Of a stretch of DNA of 53,858 nt, positions 10,393-16,411 are shown in pieces (the first letter of the stretch is position 1; each line of letters opens with the position of its first letter). The stretch is from positions 64,001-117,858 of the IMG/VR virus record IMGVR_UViG_3300008113_000007; one strand, written 5' to 3'. The translations under genes and the position numbers were made by a program. Below the pieces are notes generated by a model that was given only the letters and a program-made list of their open reading frames with translations, searched no databases and was not told the DNA's origin. This DNA comes from a virus.

Positions 10393-10442
10393 TTGTTATA
10401 ATTTTTGCGACATATATGGTCGTTTACAAAAATATCATAAGT

Positions 10443-11696
10443 ATGAAAGTAGGTTTTATAGGTTTGGGTAAGTTAGGTCTCCCGTGTGCGCTGTACATAG
10501 ACTCAAAGGGTCACGAGGTGTACGGCTATGACGTCAACGAGGAGGTCGGAAGCTATCTCAGAAACAGAAGGATTCCATACAGAGAGGAGGGCGCGGAAGA
10601 GCTTCTTGAAAAACACAAAATAAAATTCACGTCTTTGTCGGAAGTGGTCGAGAATAGCGACATCATATTCGTTCCGATACAGACGCCGCACGATTCTATG
10701 TACGAGGGCGTTACCAGGTTGCCAAAGGACAGGATCGACTTCGACTACAAATATCTAAAAGAAGGTATTTCCAATCTGTCCAAAGAGGTGGACCGTATCG
10801 GTAAGGACAAAATCGTCATAATCATTTCCACCGTTCTACCTGGCACAATCAGACGCGAGATAAAGCCGATATTGAGTGACGGGGTGAAGCTTTGTTACAA
10901 CCCGTTCTTTATCGCTATGGGTACGACAATAAAGGACTTCTCGAATCCTGAGTTTGTGCTGTTTGGTATGGACGACGAGAACGCCTATTCAGTCGCGAAG
11001 GATTTCTACTCGACTCTTCACGAAAAGCCACTATACAGGTGTACGATAGAAGAGGCGGAGATGATCAAGGTCACATACAACACATACATCACGATGAAGA
11101 TTTGTTTGGCGAACACCGTAATGGAACTTTCGCACAAAATGTCGAACATAAACTGCGACAACGTTATGAAGGGACTCTTCCTTTCCGACCAGAGATTGAT
11201 GAGCCCTAAGTACCTAATAGGTGGCATGGGTGACGGCGGCGGCTGTCACCCGAGAGACAACATAGCTTTATCCTGGCTGGCGAAGCAGGTCGATCTCAGC
11301 TACGACTGGTACGAGAGCCTTATGTACTGTAGAGAAAATCAGACCGACTGGCTCTCCGACATCATAGAGTCGGAACACAAGAAGGCAGGCCTTCCTGTTA
11401 TCATTCTCGGCAAGACCTTCAAAAAGGAGACCAACCTGGTTGTGGGAAGCCCATCGATACTACTAAAAAACCTTCTCGATGAGAAGAATGTTTCTTCCGA
11501 GATGTTCGATCCGTGGATAGACGAAGTAGAACCTCCGATTGACAGGCCTGCAATTTTCTTCATAGGCACAAACCACGACGCATTCCTCGAGTATAAATTC
11601 CCTGAGGGTTCTGTCGTAATCGATCCGTGGAGGTACATTTCGAAACAGGACGGTGTTGAATTGATAAGTATAGGTGATAGCAGATATGAAAGATAA
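10443..11696 (+). CDS. UDP-glucose/GDP-mannose-type nucleotide-sugar dehydrogenase
   Basis: This is an NAD-dependent 4-electron sugar oxidase of the UDP-glucose 6-dehydrogenase family (417 residues, usual length). The N-terminal Rossmann motif GFIGLGKLGLP is followed by IDSKGHEVYGYDVN, with its acidic ribose-binding residue. VIIISTVLPGT and the catalytic-Cys region GDGGGCHPRD (about residues 263-272) are conserved. The C-terminal domain carries VIILGKTFKKETN. ATG 10443 is preferred to 10416 because the Rossmann strand begins there; the earlier ATG would add nine unusual residues and lies inside the ATATATGG promoter-like sequence. It is the first of four overlapping sugar genes. The product would be a sugar acid for the enzymes downstream. 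Confidence 0.85.
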   Translation: MKVGFIGLGKLGLPCALYIDSKGHEVYGYDVNEEVGSYLRNRRIPYREEGAEELLEKHKIKFTSLSEVVENSDIIFVPIQTPHDSMYEGVTRLPKDRIDFDYKYLKEGISNLSKEVDRIGKDKIVIIISTVLPGTIRREIKPILSDGVKLCYNPFFIAMGTTIKDFSNPEFVLFGMDDENAYSVAKDFYSTLHEKPLYRCTIEEAEMIKVTYNTYITMKICLANTVMELSHKMSNINCDNVMKGLFLSDQRLMSPKYLIGGMGDGGGCHPRDNIALSWLAKQVDLSYDWYESLMYCRENQTDWLSDIIESEHKKAGLPVIILGKTFKKETNLVVGSPSILLKNLLDEKNVSSEMFDPWIDEVEPPIDRPAIFFIGTNHDAFLEYKFPEGSVVIDPWRYISKQDGVELISIGDSRYER

Positions 11697-12618
11697 AAGT
11701 GTACTAATTACAGGCGGTGCGGGTTTCTTTGGATCCAAACTGGTTGAGAAGTTCCTGGACCGAGGGTACTCGGTCACGGTTTACGACAGCCTCATGTTCG
11801 GAGACGACGGTGTCAAACCTTTCCTTTCGAACGAGAACTACACATTCGTCAAAGGATGTGTCACGGACCATAAGAATCTGGCGGATGTCGTCGCAAAAAA
11901 CGAGATTGTCGTCAACTTGGCGGCGTACGTAGGTGAGCCGGTCTGTAAAAAGAACAAAGATACCGTTTACACCGTGAACACAGAGGCGGCGAAGTTCCTT
12001 TCGGGACTGTGCGAGAGCTCGGGCAAGAAGTTCGTTTTTCTCAGCACCTGCTCTAACTACGGAAAGAACGACGTCATGGTCGACGAGAACTCCGAGCTCA
12101 ACCCACTTGGCCTCTATTCGGACTCTAAGATAAAGGCCGAGAAGTTCATACTCGAGAACAGTAAAGGCCAGCTTATTCTAAGGTGTGCCACGCTGTTCGG
12201 TGTTTCTCATCGGATGAGAGTTGACCTCACAATAAATCAGTTCATTTACGAGATAAACAAAGACGGTTTTGTCAGCGTTTACGGCGAGGAGGCATGGAGG
12301 CCGTATCTGCATGTGGACGACGCATGTAACATGATACTCTTATCGATAGAGAACGATTTGAGCGGTGTTTACAATCTTGGCGACAAGACTCTAAACTACA
12401 CGAAAAGACAGATTGTCGACGAGCTTGCAAAGCACAAAGAGTTCAAACTCGAGCAGGTTGACTGGGACGATCCGAGAGACTACAAAGTCGAGTTCTCCAA
12501 GCTCAGAGAGACAATCGACTACGAAATAAAGTTCAGTCTCGAGAGTGGAATTCAGCAGCTCGAGGAATTCATACACGGTGAAGATTTCAAAAACAAAACC
12601 AGTATAAAGAATGATTAG
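11686..12618 (+). CDS. NAD-dependent sugar epimerase/dehydratase (extended SDR)
   Basis: This is a nucleotide-sugar short-chain dehydrogenase (310 residues). The start ATG 11686 gives MKDKSVLITGGAGFFGSKL, placing the NAD motif GGAGFFG at residues 10-16; an earlier GTG at 11674 is possible but less natural. The catalytic pair is in GLYSDSKIKAEKF (YxxxK, about 144-148), and the Ser/Thr partner precedes it in LSTCSNYGKND. The protein has the RPYLHVDDA motif typical of the epimerase family. Its start overlaps the dehydrogenase end by 11 bases and its end overlaps the acyltransferase start by 8, indicating translational coupling. The substrate is not readable from sequence. Confidence 0.87.
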   Translation: MKDKSVLITGGAGFFGSKLVEKFLDRGYSVTVYDSLMFGDDGVKPFLSNENYTFVKGCVTDHKNLADVVAKNEIVVNLAAYVGEPVCKKNKDTVYTVNTEAAKFLSGLCESSGKKFVFLSTCSNYGKNDVMVDENSELNPLGLYSDSKIKAEKFILENSKGQLILRCATLFGVSHRMRVDLTINQFIYEINKDGFVSVYGEEAWRPYLHVDDACNMILLSIENDLSGVYNLGDKTLNYTKRQIVDELAKHKEFKLEQVDWDDPRDYKVEFSKLRETIDYEIKFSLESGIQQLEEFIHGEDFKNKTSIKND

Positions 12619-13138
12619 TGTTGGTGATGATGTTCTCATAGACAAAGACGTCGTGTTCAAACGTGAAAGCCTCGTTCGTATTGGCAACAGAGTTGCCATA
12701 GACAAGGGATTCTACTGCACTACGAAGCTAACGATTGGTGACTACGTGCACATATCACCTTACGTTACCTGCGTAGGAGGTGAGGCCGGCGAGTTTGTCT
12801 GCAAGGGCTTCAACAACATAATGGCCGGTGCCAGAATAGTCTGTTCTTCGGATAGATTTGACGGTAGCGGCCTCTTCGGTGCCATGATACCACAGGAACT
12901 AAAAGGTAAACAGATAGTGAAGCCTGTGGTTATGGAGGAGTTCTCGAACATCGGTACTAACTCGGTTGTACTACCTGGTTCTACGCTCAGGAGGGGAGTT
13001 CTTCTGGCCGCGGGTAGTCTGTTGATCGGAGATACCGAGGAATGGGGAGTCTATAAGGGTAACCCTGCGGTGTTGGTCAAGAAGATTGACCCTACTAAGA
13101 CACTGGAATATTCAAAATTACTTGGCTATGAGTTTTAA
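12611..13138 (+). CDS. Hexapeptide-repeat acyltransferase (left-handed beta-helix)
   Basis: This is a 175-residue protein with the hexapeptide pattern of left-handed beta-helix acyltransferases (ISVGDDVLIDKDVVF, VRIGNRVAIDKG, LTIGDYVHISPYV, SNIGTNSVVLPGSTL). Such enzymes acetylate or formylate amino-sugars or hydroxyls of nucleotide sugars, similar to the WbbJ/VioB group. The end WGVYKGNPAVLVKKI is typical of the family. The gene overlaps both neighbours (8 bases with the epimerase, 11 with the aminotransferase). With an aminotransferase next door, N-acylation of an amino-sugar is the likely step; this is inference. Confidence 0.82.
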   Translation: MISVGDDVLIDKDVVFKRESLVRIGNRVAIDKGFYCTTKLTIGDYVHISPYVTCVGGEAGEFVCKGFNNIMAGARIVCSSDRFDGSGLFGAMIPQELKGKQIVKPVVMEEFSNIGTNSVVLPGSTLRRGVLLAAGSLLIGDTEEWGVYKGNPAVLVKKIDPTKTLEYSKLLGYEF

Positions 13139-13715
13139 CTCTATACATAAGTTTGAGCAGGAAATCGCCGGTTTCTTTGGATCGCCGTACGCTGTCGCTG
13201 TCGACTGCTGCACCCACGCACTCGAGCTTTCGCTCATACTCACGAATGCCAAACGTATAAAGGTGCCCAACAGGACTTACGTCTCCGTACCGTTTCTTTC
13301 ACGTAAGCTCGGCATCGGTCTCGAATGGTCCTACGAAGACTGGAGTGAATACTACTACATCACCGACAGAGTAATCGACGCTGCCGTGCTCTGGAGAAGA
13401 GACAGTTACTTGCCTGGAACTTTCATGTGCGTGAGCTTCCAGTTCCGAAAGCACCTTTCACTGGGCAGGGGAGGTGTAATCCTTACCGACGATAAGGACT
13501 CTTACGATGAACTGAAGAAGCTCTCATACGACGGTAGGCTTCCTGACCAGCCATGGGCCACGCAAAACATAGCGTCTGTGGGCTATCACTACTATATGAC
13601 ACCGGAGACTGCAGAGCTCGGCCTCTCAAAATTACCGGATGCGATAGCCAAATCACCGGAGATATGGACTATCGACAATTGGCCGGATCTTACTCAGATG
13701 GACGTTTTCAAATAA
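13128..13715 (+). CDS. Short DegT/DnrJ-type sugar aminotransferase (195 aa)
   Basis: This resembles PLP-dependent DegT/DnrJ/EryC1 sugar aminotransferases, but at 195 residues it is about half their usual length (roughly 370). Visible landmarks are CCTHALELSLIL (equivalent to the phosphate-binding SGTxALHLAL), VPNRTYVSVPF, VIDAAVLW (the Asp that contacts the PLP ring nitrogen) and SFQFRKHLSLGRGGVI, where Lys is the expected Schiff-base residue. The C-terminal small domain is largely missing after about residue 170. Start ATG 13128 overlaps the acyltransferase stop; the more distal start at 13086 would add residues that do not resemble the family. It may be a compact active enzyme or a decayed one. 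It ends before a terminator. Confidence 0.72.
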   Translation: MSFNSIHKFEQEIAGFFGSPYAVAVDCCTHALELSLILTNAKRIKVPNRTYVSVPFLSRKLGIGLEWSYEDWSEYYYITDRVIDAAVLWRRDSYLPGTFMCVSFQFRKHLSLGRGGVILTDDKDSYDELKKLSYDGRLPDQPWATQNIASVGYHYYMTPETAELGLSKLPDAIAKSPEIWTIDNWPDLTQMDVFK

Positions 13716-13773: not shown

Positions 13774-14154
13774 ATGGCTACTCAATATTTCACACAGAAA
13801 ATATTAAAGACATTGCAATTCTATGTAGAACCAGAAAACGATCATGGTTTCAACTGGGACAGCAACGACAGGTATGAAGTTATCCAAGAAGCGAATTATT
13901 TGGATGGTGGTATGGTATCCATAGAGAATATGAGAAAGGCTCTTGATGAATTCGAGAAACAGGGTGCAAACTACGTAAATGTCGACTTTCATTGTGACCA
14001 CAACGAGGTTGAGGTAACCGGCGTAATCTTCGGAAGATCGACACAGGAAGAAATTGATGCGCATATCAAGAATGAGTTGCATCAAAAAGAAGCACTAAAA
14101 CAAAAAGAGATTGCCAGGTTGCAGGCGGAGATTGAAAGAATTAAAAGTTTGTAG
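13774..14154 (+). CDS. Unknown protein with C-terminal coiled coil (126 aa)
   Basis: I do not recognise this protein. It begins MATQYFTQKILKTLQFY, has a probable alpha/beta core (NYVNVDFHCDHNEVEVTGVIF, about residues 69-89) and ends in a lysine/glutamate-rich coiled coil (QKEALKQKEIARLQAEIERI, about 104-123). Codon use is clearly more AT-rich than in the surrounding genes (AAT, GAA, TTG rather than AAC, GAG, CTC). The promoter is of host type rather than late type. Together these suggest early expression and possibly a more recent acquisition. Confidence 0.75.
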   Translation: MATQYFTQKILKTLQFYVEPENDHGFNWDSNDRYEVIQEANYLDGGMVSIENMRKALDEFEKQGANYVNVDFHCDHNEVEVTGVIFGRSTQEEIDAHIKNELHQKEALKQKEIARLQAEIERIKSL

Positions 14155-14194
14155 TAACTCATTATCACATGCTATAACTTCTCGGATTTATTCT

Positions 14195-14202
14195 TATATT
14201 TG
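14195..14202 (+). promoter_or_regulatory. Bacteroidota-type -7 element TATATTTG
   Basis: The second copy of TATATTTGTAGAA. It ends eight bases before the ATG at 14210, so the transcript would be nearly leaderless. Confidence 0.5.
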
Positions 14203-14209
14203 TAGAACG

Positions 14210-14548
14210 ATGAAAGAAAAGGTAGAGTACGTATGGAGAACGATGACCTCGCAAGAAATCTGGGAAGCAATGCCGAGATCAGAGCAAGAGATGAAGGTCG
14301 TTATAAAGCCATCATTCCCTACTTACAGATGGGGAAAACTAATCACAAAAACCGCAACCAACGACAAAGAGTCGATTGAGAAGGCTATAACAATACTGAA
14401 ATTGAAGGGTGAGACAGTCAGAAAGAGAATCTGTCACGAGACTACTACTAAAAACAAAAGCAGAGGATTTGGTACTTTCTACAAAATTGAGATAAAAACT
14501 ATAAAAAACCATCAAAATTATAAACAAAGTAAAAACGACGATATATAA
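14210..14548 (+). CDS. Unknown basic protein (112 aa)
   Basis: I do not recognise this protein. The start at ATG 14210 (MKEKVEYVWRTMTSQEIWEA) is chosen because the TATATTTG promoter element lies immediately upstream; extending to 14111 would overlap the previous gene out of frame and give an unlikely N-terminus. The protein is basic, with an alpha/beta look (KVVIKPSFPTYRWGKLI, then a helix KESIEKAITILKLKGE) and a Lys/Asn-rich tail. AT-rich codon use matches its upstream neighbour. Its stop codon lies inside a late-type promoter block (GATATATAA), which appears to serve the noncoding RNA downstream. Confidence 0.65.
   Translation: MKEKVEYVWRTMTSQEIWEAMPRSEQEMKVVIKPSFPTYRWGKLITKTATNDKESIEKAITILKLKGETVRKRICHETTTKNKSRGFGTFYKIEIKTIKNHQNYKQSKNDDI
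14540..14548 (+). promoter_or_regulatory. Late-type promoter upstream of the structured RNA
   Basis: GATATATAA overlaps the stop codon of the preceding gene. The next coding start is 420 bases away, so a transcript beginning near 14554 would be the noncoding RNA, ending at the terminator at 14914-14947. Confidence 0.5.
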
Positions 14549-14662
14549 CAATAACTAAGACAATAGCCGTAGTGAGAGACAAGGGTTACTTCGATTTTCT
14601 GAATATAATTTGACACACACCCTATCTCGACTTACTCGGTCGATATTGAACGCAGACATAGT

Positions 14663-14947
14663 CATAGTTTGAGATACTTCGATACAAATTCTAAACTATG
14701 AAAAGAAGAGCTTAGCGGCAGCGAAGCCATGAATGCCCGGGTCTAAGGAACCGCGGGACTAGTGAAAAAGCCCGTCCGGGGGACGTAAAGCTCATAGGAA
14801 AAGCCTTGTTTCCGATAAAAGAAAGGTAGGTTGGCCAGACCTCGATGGCCGGCAGAGTTTCGGGAGAATTCTCTGTGACGCTTAGGCTAAATTTTCTTGT
14901 CTGCTTTCCTATTAGACCGGTGTGCTTGCGCATCGGTCTTTTTTTTT
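14663..14947 (+). ncRNA. Structured noncoding RNA upstream of Ro60 (candidate Y-RNA-like)
   Basis: The 420-base gap 14549-14968 has no credible reading frame but is dense in complementary segments. These are: CATAGTTT(g)AG 14663-14673 with CTAAACTATG 14691-14700; GAGCTT 14708-14713 with AAGCTC 14788-14793, enclosing CCCGGGT 14736-14742 with ACCGCGGG 14750-14757 and CGTCC 14773-14777 with GGACG 14781-14785; and a long-range stem ATAGGAAAAGC 14794-14804 with GCTTTCCTAT 14903-14912. That last stem encloses GGCCA/TGGCC (14833-14850) and CAGAG/CTCTG (14853-14875). A terminator (AGACCG/CGGTCT plus nine T) closes the unit. Bacterial Ro60 genes are commonly neighboured by Y RNAs, so this is the obvious partner candidate. 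I did not find the tRNA-like module of YrlA RNAs, so the class is uncertain. Confidence 0.7.
14914..14947 (+). terminator. Rho-independent terminator of the structured RNA
   Basis: AGACCG (14914-14919) pairs with CGGTCT (14934-14939), with an inner TGC/GCA pairing, followed by nine T. It separates the RNA from the Ro60 message. Confidence 0.8.
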
Positions 14948-14968
14948 GGTACTAATTTTTTATAAGAT

Positions 14969-16411
14969 ATGGCAAAGTTCAACACAAAGTCGCCTAAGGC
15001 GAAGACACTAACAGAGAACCTGGCAGGAGGCCAGGCCTACAAGCAGTCCGACGAGCTCGCGCTCGCTTCCATTTTACTGACGTCGTTCGTTAGCGACCAG
15101 TTCTACCGCGGATCCTCGGACACGCTGTCCGAGGTGAAGTCGCTTCTTTCCAAGGTAGATCCTGTATTCGCGGCTAAGGCTGCGATCTACGCAAGGGATC
15201 GTTTCGGAATGAGGTCGATAACGCACGCACTTGCAGGCGAGATTGCGCCTTTGGCATCCGGTGCAGAGTGGGGCAAGTCCTTCTACGAGAAGGTTGTCTC
15301 CAGGCCGGACGACATGACCGAGATCCTCTCGTACTATATGTCGATAAACGGCAAGGGTAAGGTGAAGTTCCCTAACTCCATCAAGAAGGGGTTCGCCGCG
15401 GCGTTCGACAAGTTCGACGACTACCAAATCGCGAAGTACAAGATGTCGAACAGGAACGTGAAGCTGGTAGACGTCGTGAACCTGGTGCACCCAGTACCTA
15501 CGGACAGGAACAAAGAGGCGCTGTCTCTACTTATTGCGGACAAGTTGAAGAGCACCGACACCTGGGAGGCCAAGCTTTCCGCCGCAGGACAGGCAGCTGG
15601 CAACGCAGAAGAGCTCGAGGTGCTGAAGTCGAACGCATGGAACGAGTTAGTCTCGACCAGGAAGATTGGCTACTTCGCGCTTCTTAGGAACCTGAGGAAC
15701 ATCATCGAGCAGGCTCCTGACGCAATCCCTGCGACGTGTGAGATGCTAGTAGACGCGAGGCTAATCTCCAAGAGCAAGGTTCTTCCTTTCAGGTTCGCGA
15801 CCGCGTACGACGAGATTTCCAGGCTCGGTGGCTCCCAGGAGGTAAGAGACGTCCTGGTGGCGATCAACAACGCGCTTGAGGTGTCAATCGTGAACGTGCC
15901 TAGGTTGGAAAACTGTCTGGTCGTGATGGACGTGTCCGGATCGATGAGTGGTAGGCCTTCCGAGATAGCGAGCCTTTTCGGCGCCGTGCTCGCGAAGGTG
16001 AACTCCTGCGACGTGATGACTTTCGCCGAGAGCGCGAGGTACATGAGCTACAACCCGCTCGACTCAGTGATGTCGATCAGGAAGTCGTTCAGGTTCAGCG
16101 GAGGTGGTACGAACTTTCCTTCCATCTTCAAGACGGCGAAGAAGGCTTACGACAACATAATCATCCTGAGCGATATGCAGGGATGGATCGGCTACTACAC
16201 ACCTACCAAGGAGTTCAACGAGTGGAAGAAGAGGACCGGTGCCAACCCGCACGTGTTCTCTTGGGACCTCGCGGGACACAGCACGCTTCAGTTTCCTGAG
16301 AGCCAGGTTTACTGTCTGGTGGGCTTCTCCGAGAAGGTGTTCGACGTGATGGAGCTGCTGAAGACCGACAGGGCCGCGCTGGTCAACGAGATCAAGGCGA
16401 TTGAGCTTTAG
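14969..16411 (+). CDS. rsr: Ro60-family TROVE/vWA RNA-binding protein
   Basis: This is a Ro60 orthologue (480 residues). Ro60 proteins are HEAT-repeat rings that bind misfolded RNAs in the central hole and Y RNAs on the outer face; in bacteria they also tether RNA to nucleases such as PNPase. Residues 1-300 form the TROVE domain (ELALASILLTSFVSDQFYRG; KAAIYARDRFGMRSITHALA). The C-terminal von Willebrand A domain has the MIDAS motif VVMDVSGSMSG (about 318-328, DxSxS) and the later FSGGGTNF and ILSDMQ strands. The gene follows the structured RNA by 21 bases after its terminator and has its own TTATAAGAT sequence just before the ATG. Ro60 genes are known in a minority of phages. Confidence 0.92.
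   Translation: MAKFNTKSPKAKTLTENLAGGQAYKQSDELALASILLTSFVSDQFYRGSSDTLSEVKSLLSKVDPVFAAKAAIYARDRFGMRSITHALAGEIAPLASGAEWGKSFYEKVVSRPDDMTEILSYYMSINGKGKVKFPNSIKKGFAAAFDKFDDYQIAKYKMSNRNVKLVDVVNLVHPVPTDRNKEALSLLIADKLKSTDTWEAKLSAAGQAAGNAEELEVLKSNAWNELVSTRKIGYFALLRNLRNIIEQAPDAIPATCEMLVDARLISKSKVLPFRFATAYDEISRLGGSQEVRDVLVAINNALEVSIVNVPRLENCLVVMDVSGSMSGRPSEIASLFGAVLAKVNSCDVMTFAESARYMSYNPLDSVMSIRKSFRFSGGGTNFPSIFKTAKKAYDNIIILSDMQGWIGYYTPTKEFNEWKKRTGANPHVFSWDLAGHSTLQFPESQVYCLVGFSEKVFDVMELLKTDRAALVNEIKAIEL

Follow-up and report, generated by a model that had tools for sequence, protein, structure and literature searches.

Does the DNA ahead of a phage Ro60 gene encode an RNA partner for that protein and, if so, of what kind? 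The question is raised by a 53,858-nt stretch (the window) of IMG/VR virus record IMGVR_UViG_3300008113_000007, in which a noncoding gap of 420 bases (14549-14968) separates the stop of an open reading frame (ORF; 14111-14548) from the ATG of a Ro60 gene at 14969. An earlier note, made from the sequence alone, had placed a structured RNA with its own terminator in this gap, the latter 21 bases ahead of a full-length Ro60 gene; the coordinates, a stem followed by T9 and a Pfam TROVE match (2e-18) in the protein bore this out. The sole ORF of at least 60 amino acids (aa) inside the gap, of 73 aa, is on the minus strand. Comparative analysis largely answers the question: the RNA is best read as a new variant of bacterial Y RNA that would serve as a bipartite Ro60 tether or gate. 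The features of the RNA and its gene are as follows.

14564-14642, plus strand: Y1, a plain hairpin of the Ro60-docking, Y-RNA type (CCGUAGUGA...GGGUUACUUCG / ACCCUAUCUCGACUUACUCGG), matched by model R1
14652-14681, plus strand: 5' strand of Y2 (GCAGACA-UAGUCAU-AGUUUGAG-AUACUUCG), a matrix match that pairs with 14881-14904
14682-14880, plus strand: putative type-A effector module of ~200 nt in the Y2 loop, in place of the permuted tRNA-like insert of relatives
14705-14732, plus strand: module hairpin around GGCAGC (GACAGC in relatives), position-matched in most relatives
14828-14850, plus strand: H-type pseudoknot (stem 1 AGGU/ACCU, 14828-14831 and 14839-14842; stem 2 GGCCA/UGGCC, 14833-14837 and 14846-14850)
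14853-14875, plus strand: conserved hairpin CAGAG-UUUCGGGAGAAUU-CUCUG
14881-14904, plus strand: 3' strand of Y2 (CUUAGGCU-AAAUUUUC-UUGUCUGC), with covarying helices
14914-14947, plus strand: intrinsic terminator (stem and T9), 21 bases upstream of the Ro60 ATG
14969-16411, plus strand: Ro60 of 480 aa (TROVE and vWA, metal-site residues intact), assigned by Pfam, PDB profile matches, AlphaFold and Foldseek

A conserved RNA ahead of Ro60 in one viral clade

The expectation that the RNA stands beside related Ro60 genes held throughout: in a single virus-only clade of Ro60s, spanning 30 contigs, the RNA lies upstream of the gene without exception, and the members include the 634-kb phage LR745206 as well as many IMG/VR contigs. 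When a conserved 16-mer of the RNA alone was used for searching, 17 stretches were recovered, of which 12 were this RNA, with Ro60 downstream in 12/12, and five were chance matches. A second RNA pattern yielded eight stretches, all on contigs of the Ro60 clade, and a DNA similarity search in plasmids gave no match. The window's own record (117.9 kb) is probably a fragment, and incompleteness may affect the majority of the contigs.

When 123 Ro60 proteins were placed in a tree, all 25 distinct sequences that come with the RNA grouped as a single virus-only clade (Shimodaira-Hasegawa-like approximate likelihood ratio test, 100). This clade is nested among Ro60s at many of whose loci there are Y arrays bearing tRNA-like inserts. 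L057 and L078, the closest to it (support 93), both have Y-type motifs, that of L057 bearing a tRNA-like insert recognised as YrlA.

Because single-sequence folding of the gap was only moderately better than that of shuffled sequences (z = -2.4), comparison was needed. The minimum free energy (MFE) fold omits the Y2 inner helix and the pseudoknot, both of which are supported by comparison. Accordingly, of the earlier claim of at least seven stem pairs, the structured RNA itself stood, by conservation and covariation, while the MFE inventory fits the comparative structure only in part. The decisive evidence over chance is conservation upstream of Ro60 in the 30 contigs together with compensatory changes; the pair counts given below treat related sequences as independent.

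Y1 matches the docking hairpin of bacterial Y RNAs

Hairpin arrays often precede the Ro60 genes of bacteria (Saprospiraceae, Hymenobacter, Neolewinella, Clostridium) and of distant phages. Their order is constant, i.e., outer stem, UAGUGA, inner stem, GUUACUUC, loop, inner stem, UUUUCUC, outer stem, and some loops hold a permuted tRNA-like insert in which the T arm lies ahead of the D arm. The Rfam YrlA model recognised this insert in 10 of 11 distant loci (E 1e-6 to 1e-2, under the gathering score), and in the eleventh (L082, on the contig of L004) a tRNA match fell within the unit. Since all 11 distant loci gave YrlA or tRNA matches, the arrays are identified, by sequence, as Y RNAs.

For a covariance model, R1, we took 24 plain hairpins, all of them bacterial or from distant phages and none from the clade. 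A script selected these training units by requiring them to pair, which biases their pair counts and leaves the clade tests unaffected. Of 54 bacterial Ro60 loci, some of which are in the training set, 38 gave R1 matches to Y hairpins. In the window the model scored Y1 at 27.7 bits (E 1.3e-5 in 10 kb), with 11 bits for the next best site, and Y1 was matched in 30/30 clade loci (E 2e-9 to 3e-4). In L048-L050 there were three extra matches (E 0.3-0.7), located within Y2 or where it starts.

Across nine phage records (~3 Mb), R1 matches were confined to Ro60 loci and tRNA arrays. Six further Y RNAs (L173-L178) were found, all within large tRNA gene arrays far from Ro60 and most of them bearing tRNA-like inserts:

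LR745206, 342959-343028: Y RNA in a tRNA array
LR745206, 369033-369172: Y RNA in a tRNA array
LR745206, 388895-389000: Y RNA in a tRNA array
G007, 263151: Y RNA in a tRNA array
G006, 257507: Y RNA in a tRNA array
G009, 197820: Y RNA in a tRNA array

One of the three in LR745206 scored 61.7 bits. At least four of these phages are thereby predicted to carry ordinary Y RNAs in trans in addition to the rebuilt Ro60-linked RNA; in the window's own record, R1 found only the Ro60-linked one.

Y2 is a second hairpin of the docking type and closes the 3' domain

A matrix of the Y 5' strand, from the same training set as R1, ranked Y2 first and Y1 fourth on both strands of the 53.9-kb window. The 3' strand of Y2 lies 200 nt downstream of the 5' strand, within the most conserved stretch of the RNA. 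Among 20 distinct sequences, 98% of cells in the Y2 helices were paired, compared with 19-45% in slid controls, and two-sided changes were seen at 6/7 pairs of the outer helix and 3/8 pairs of the inner helix; for these counts the halves were joined by N spacers and their ends placed visually and with a pairing search, which makes the counts lean towards pairing. The docking-stem motif of the Y hairpins beside other Ro60 genes is present in Y1 by R1 and in Y2 by the matrix and the covarying helices.

The Y2 loop holds a pseudoknot module

In most relatives the GGCAGC/GACAGC hairpin contains covarying GUGNN/NNCUAC pairs, and a conserved motif, GUGAAAAAG, lies 3' of it at 14762. Stem 2 of the pseudoknot had two-sided changes at 5/5 pairs, with 93% of cells paired and the variants GGCCA/UGGCC, GGUCA/UGACC and UAUGG/CUAUA; slid controls of the whole structure gave 32-51%. 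For this alignment (A8), N letters were inserted in five rows (window, L029, L032, L038 and L039) to set the register, and N cells were excluded from the counts. In the conserved hairpin that follows, 98% of cells were paired and 3/6 pairs had two-sided changes. By inspection, module types B and C retain the pseudoknot with different letters (GAUGU/ACAUC, GAAA/UUUC, UUGAU/AUCAA), so that the A, B and C modules probably form one family.

A second model, R2, was built from the 3' part of the module with the window sequence included, so that its window match is by construction. It gave one high-score match per record in nine records, always at Ro60, and an extra 16-bit match in G009 that was noise; the loci of types B and C, of distant phages and of bacteria that were tested gave none. 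In the window and 13 other clade loci, the RNA and module matched no Rfam family, and no tRNA or YrlA match (T and D arms) was obtained there, while the positive control succeeded in 11/11 distant loci. No tRNA or tmRNA was found in the window. Weak relaxed-threshold Rfam matches in the window (L20 leader, suhB) were rejected, being at chance level and resting largely on the terminator stem and T-run.

These results agree with the earlier view of the RNA as a structured partner of the phage Ro60, given the Y docking hairpins, the covariation and the constant Ro60 linkage. The two domains without a tRNA-like module were likewise upheld, and the suggested new Y-RNA class takes shape as a probable new variant of bacterial Y RNA with Y-type docking hairpins and a module that is not tRNA-like. 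Of the checks that the note had proposed, the YrlA covariance model (RF02553) gave no match at gathering score in the window and its own record; R1, the new model from bacteria and distant phages, matched Y1, and Y2 and the pseudoknot covaried among the relatives. The note had missed that both hairpins are of the Ro60-docking type, that Y2 closes the whole 3' domain and that the pseudoknot is the core of the module. It had further speculated that such a phage could redirect host RNA decay or shield its own transcripts.

As a separate observation, the loop inserts of the Neolewinella persica Y RNAs (L144 1672-1936) do not look tRNA-like, so further module types probably exist in bacteria.

Proposed function and alternatives

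We consider it likely that the gap encodes a bipartite Y RNA that acts as a Ro60 gate or tether, with the module recruiting a partner. An RNA of ~340 nt would have a start of its own and would end at the terminator just ahead of the Ro60 gene; partial read-through would give less Ro60 mRNA, so that the RNA would probably be in excess over the protein. The Y1 and Y2 stems could each bind a Ro60 ring on its outer face, and Y2 would hold the 200-nt pseudoknot module out in solution, where ordinary bacterial Y RNAs have the tRNA mimic. While the stems would gate and tether Ro60, the module would recruit a partner, most plausibly a host exonuclease, e.g., PNPase, or another host RNA machine, and structured or misfolded RNAs would be channelled to decay or held during infection. 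Because no phage-encoded PNPase or RtcB was found in the nine phage records, a nuclease partner, if any, is probably a host protein, with host PNPase as the conservative candidate.

Y RNAs are regarded as modular, joining a constant docking stem to an effector. In this clade the effector seems to have given way to another structured module, with the docking stem retained and doubled. Such an exchange is a natural experiment on the role of the effector, and it points to a further Ro60 partner. These very large phages seem to have remodelled a particle that cells use for RNA surveillance. Moreover, the R1 docking-stem model finds Y RNAs missed by Rfam, including those hidden in phage tRNA arrays, and what phages use Ro60 for thereby becomes testable. 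We are more hesitant about a bolder version, which we think somewhat less probable than its negation, in which the module, as a new kind of Y-RNA effector domain, brings in a machine that is not PNPase and a single RNA carries two Ro60 rings, making a phage-specific RNA-handling particle.

Several points weigh against the tether reading. R1 gave no match to Y2 in the window, owing to the 200-nt loop, and Y2 rests on the matrix and the pair counts; its 3' motif is unremarkable by matrix score. Folded by itself, the window sequence prefers a local hairpin to the Y2 helices by ~6 kcal/mol. Expression of the RNA and its binding to Ro60 are predictions from sequence, and the identity of the module's partner is a guess. 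The local hairpin is the following feature.

14661-14701, plus strand: competing local hairpin (UCAUAGUUUGAGA / UCUAAACUAUGA), incompatible with the Y2 inner helix, the MFE choice in the window

It is strong in the window and L003 and weak or absent in many relatives, and may represent an alternative state or an intermediate in folding. As a conserved switch it was rejected, there being no support across the clade.

An unlikely alternative is a cis-regulatory leader, in which attenuation at the terminator controls Ro60, e.g., Ro60 binds its own leader and alters termination. The RNA does always lie ahead of Ro60, with the terminator 20-60 nt between them in most members, and Y2 has two mutually exclusive folds in the window; the competing fold, however, is not conserved and does not involve the terminator. 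The docking stem is, moreover, probably used in trans, because related Y RNAs occur in tRNA arrays away from Ro60, and the conserved 200-nt module exceeds the needs of an attenuator. Leader and Y-RNA roles could be combined.

We also give little credence to the RNA being a client rather than a partner, i.e., acting as substrate, decoy or sponge and either occupying Ro60 or titrating that of the host. A sponge would be well served by two docking stems per RNA, and the presence of Ro60 in many Bacteroidota genomes makes host Ro60 a possible target, but a Ro60 gene of the phage itself always adjoins the RNA, and the module shows a detailed conservation that a sponge would not need. Chance folding of a phage intergenic region, for which the modest advantage over shuffles might speak, is refuted by the covariation, and compensatory changes, independent model matches and fixed synteny in 30 contigs make it extremely improbable.

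Comparison with known systems

Bacterial Y RNA/YrlA, the partner of Rsr/Ro60, shares with the window RNA the adjacency to Ro60, a long end-to-end stem with the docking motif and an effector module in the loop. The window RNA differs in having two docking stems per transcript, a pseudoknot module for the tRNA-like one and no YrlA match, and in its length of ~340 nt compared with 90-150 nt for bacterial Y RNAs (PMC8394870). In RYPER (Rsr-Y RNA-PNPase) of Deinococcus, the Y RNA tethers the Ro60 ring to the nuclease (PMC8394870, PMC8058203), a mechanism that the window RNA may share; the nuclease contact of RYPER is, however, the tRNA-like domain, which is absent here, and no PNPase was found in the nine phage records. 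Phage Ro60 with a nearby Y RNA or candidate has been described in mycobacteriophages and Listeria phage CKA15 (PMC12282133), and Thermus phage phiLo carries a Ro60 (structure 9l5y), the likeness here being via the protein only. In the open-licence literature, we found no bipartite RNA or pseudoknot module described for the mycobacteriophage, CKA15 or phiLo systems. GOLLD and ROOL occur in phages as well. They are likewise large, ornate structured RNAs of bacteria (PMC12286853), compared with which the window RNA is smaller and is linked to Ro60; it matched neither family in Rfam, whether at gathering or at relaxed threshold.

Transcription signals

A terminator-like stem with a T-run was present in 27/30 clade loci including the window, mostly 20-60 nt ahead of Ro60. 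Since a terminator separates the RNA from Ro60, the arrangement suggests that Ro60 is produced via read-through. A candidate start signal lies at the other end of the RNA.

14499-14549, plus strand: degenerate copy of the kept upstream box (CTATAAA-n-ATCC...GATATATAAC), promoter or operator candidate

The earlier note had read 14540-14548 as a late-type promoter. GATATATAAC is exact at this site and is the 3' end of a box conserved upstream of the RNA in relatives; near-matches to it across the window are not clearly more frequent than chance, and as a general late promoter it was rejected. In the clade, the box spans ~50 bases upstream of Y1, ends in GATATATA or similar and often contains an inverted repeat with matching (covarying) changes. 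Its strict form is single-copy in 6/8 phage records, the copies of the window and L003 being degenerate. The box may be a promoter, an operator or another RNA element, a promoter role being plausible.

The Ro60 protein and neighbouring genes

Besides the TROVE domain, the window Ro60 has a vWA_Ro60 match of 22.1 bits, under the Pfam cut-off of 27.7, and the metal-site residues D321, S323, S325, T381 and D402 are invariant among 36 sequences. With an AlphaFold model of predicted local distance difference test score 83, Foldseek returned 9kop, 9l5y, 2i91 and 1yvp (E 1e-13 to 1e-15; template modelling score 0.6-0.7), the best structural matches all being Ro60, including Thermus phage Ro60 and Deinococcus Rsr. 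Exact protein patterns gave no match in genome contigs; a profile search recovered bacterial Ro60, with genes in many Bacteroidota genomes.

In L014 (2455-4587, minus strand), a 224-aa ORF with HNH-like cysteine/histidine motifs splits Ro60 near residue 158, and the same split occurs in L028. This ORF is probably a homing endonuclease, to judge from its motifs; the split genes had no match to known intron families. A tmRNA gene (RF00023, 87.9 bits) is present at L006 1279-1618, ~1.4 kb upstream of a phage Ro60 gene. Finally, the window holds a run of sugar-nucleotide genes at 10416-13715, i.e., a UDP-sugar dehydrogenase, an epimerase, a hexapeptide transferase and a DegT-type aminotransferase.
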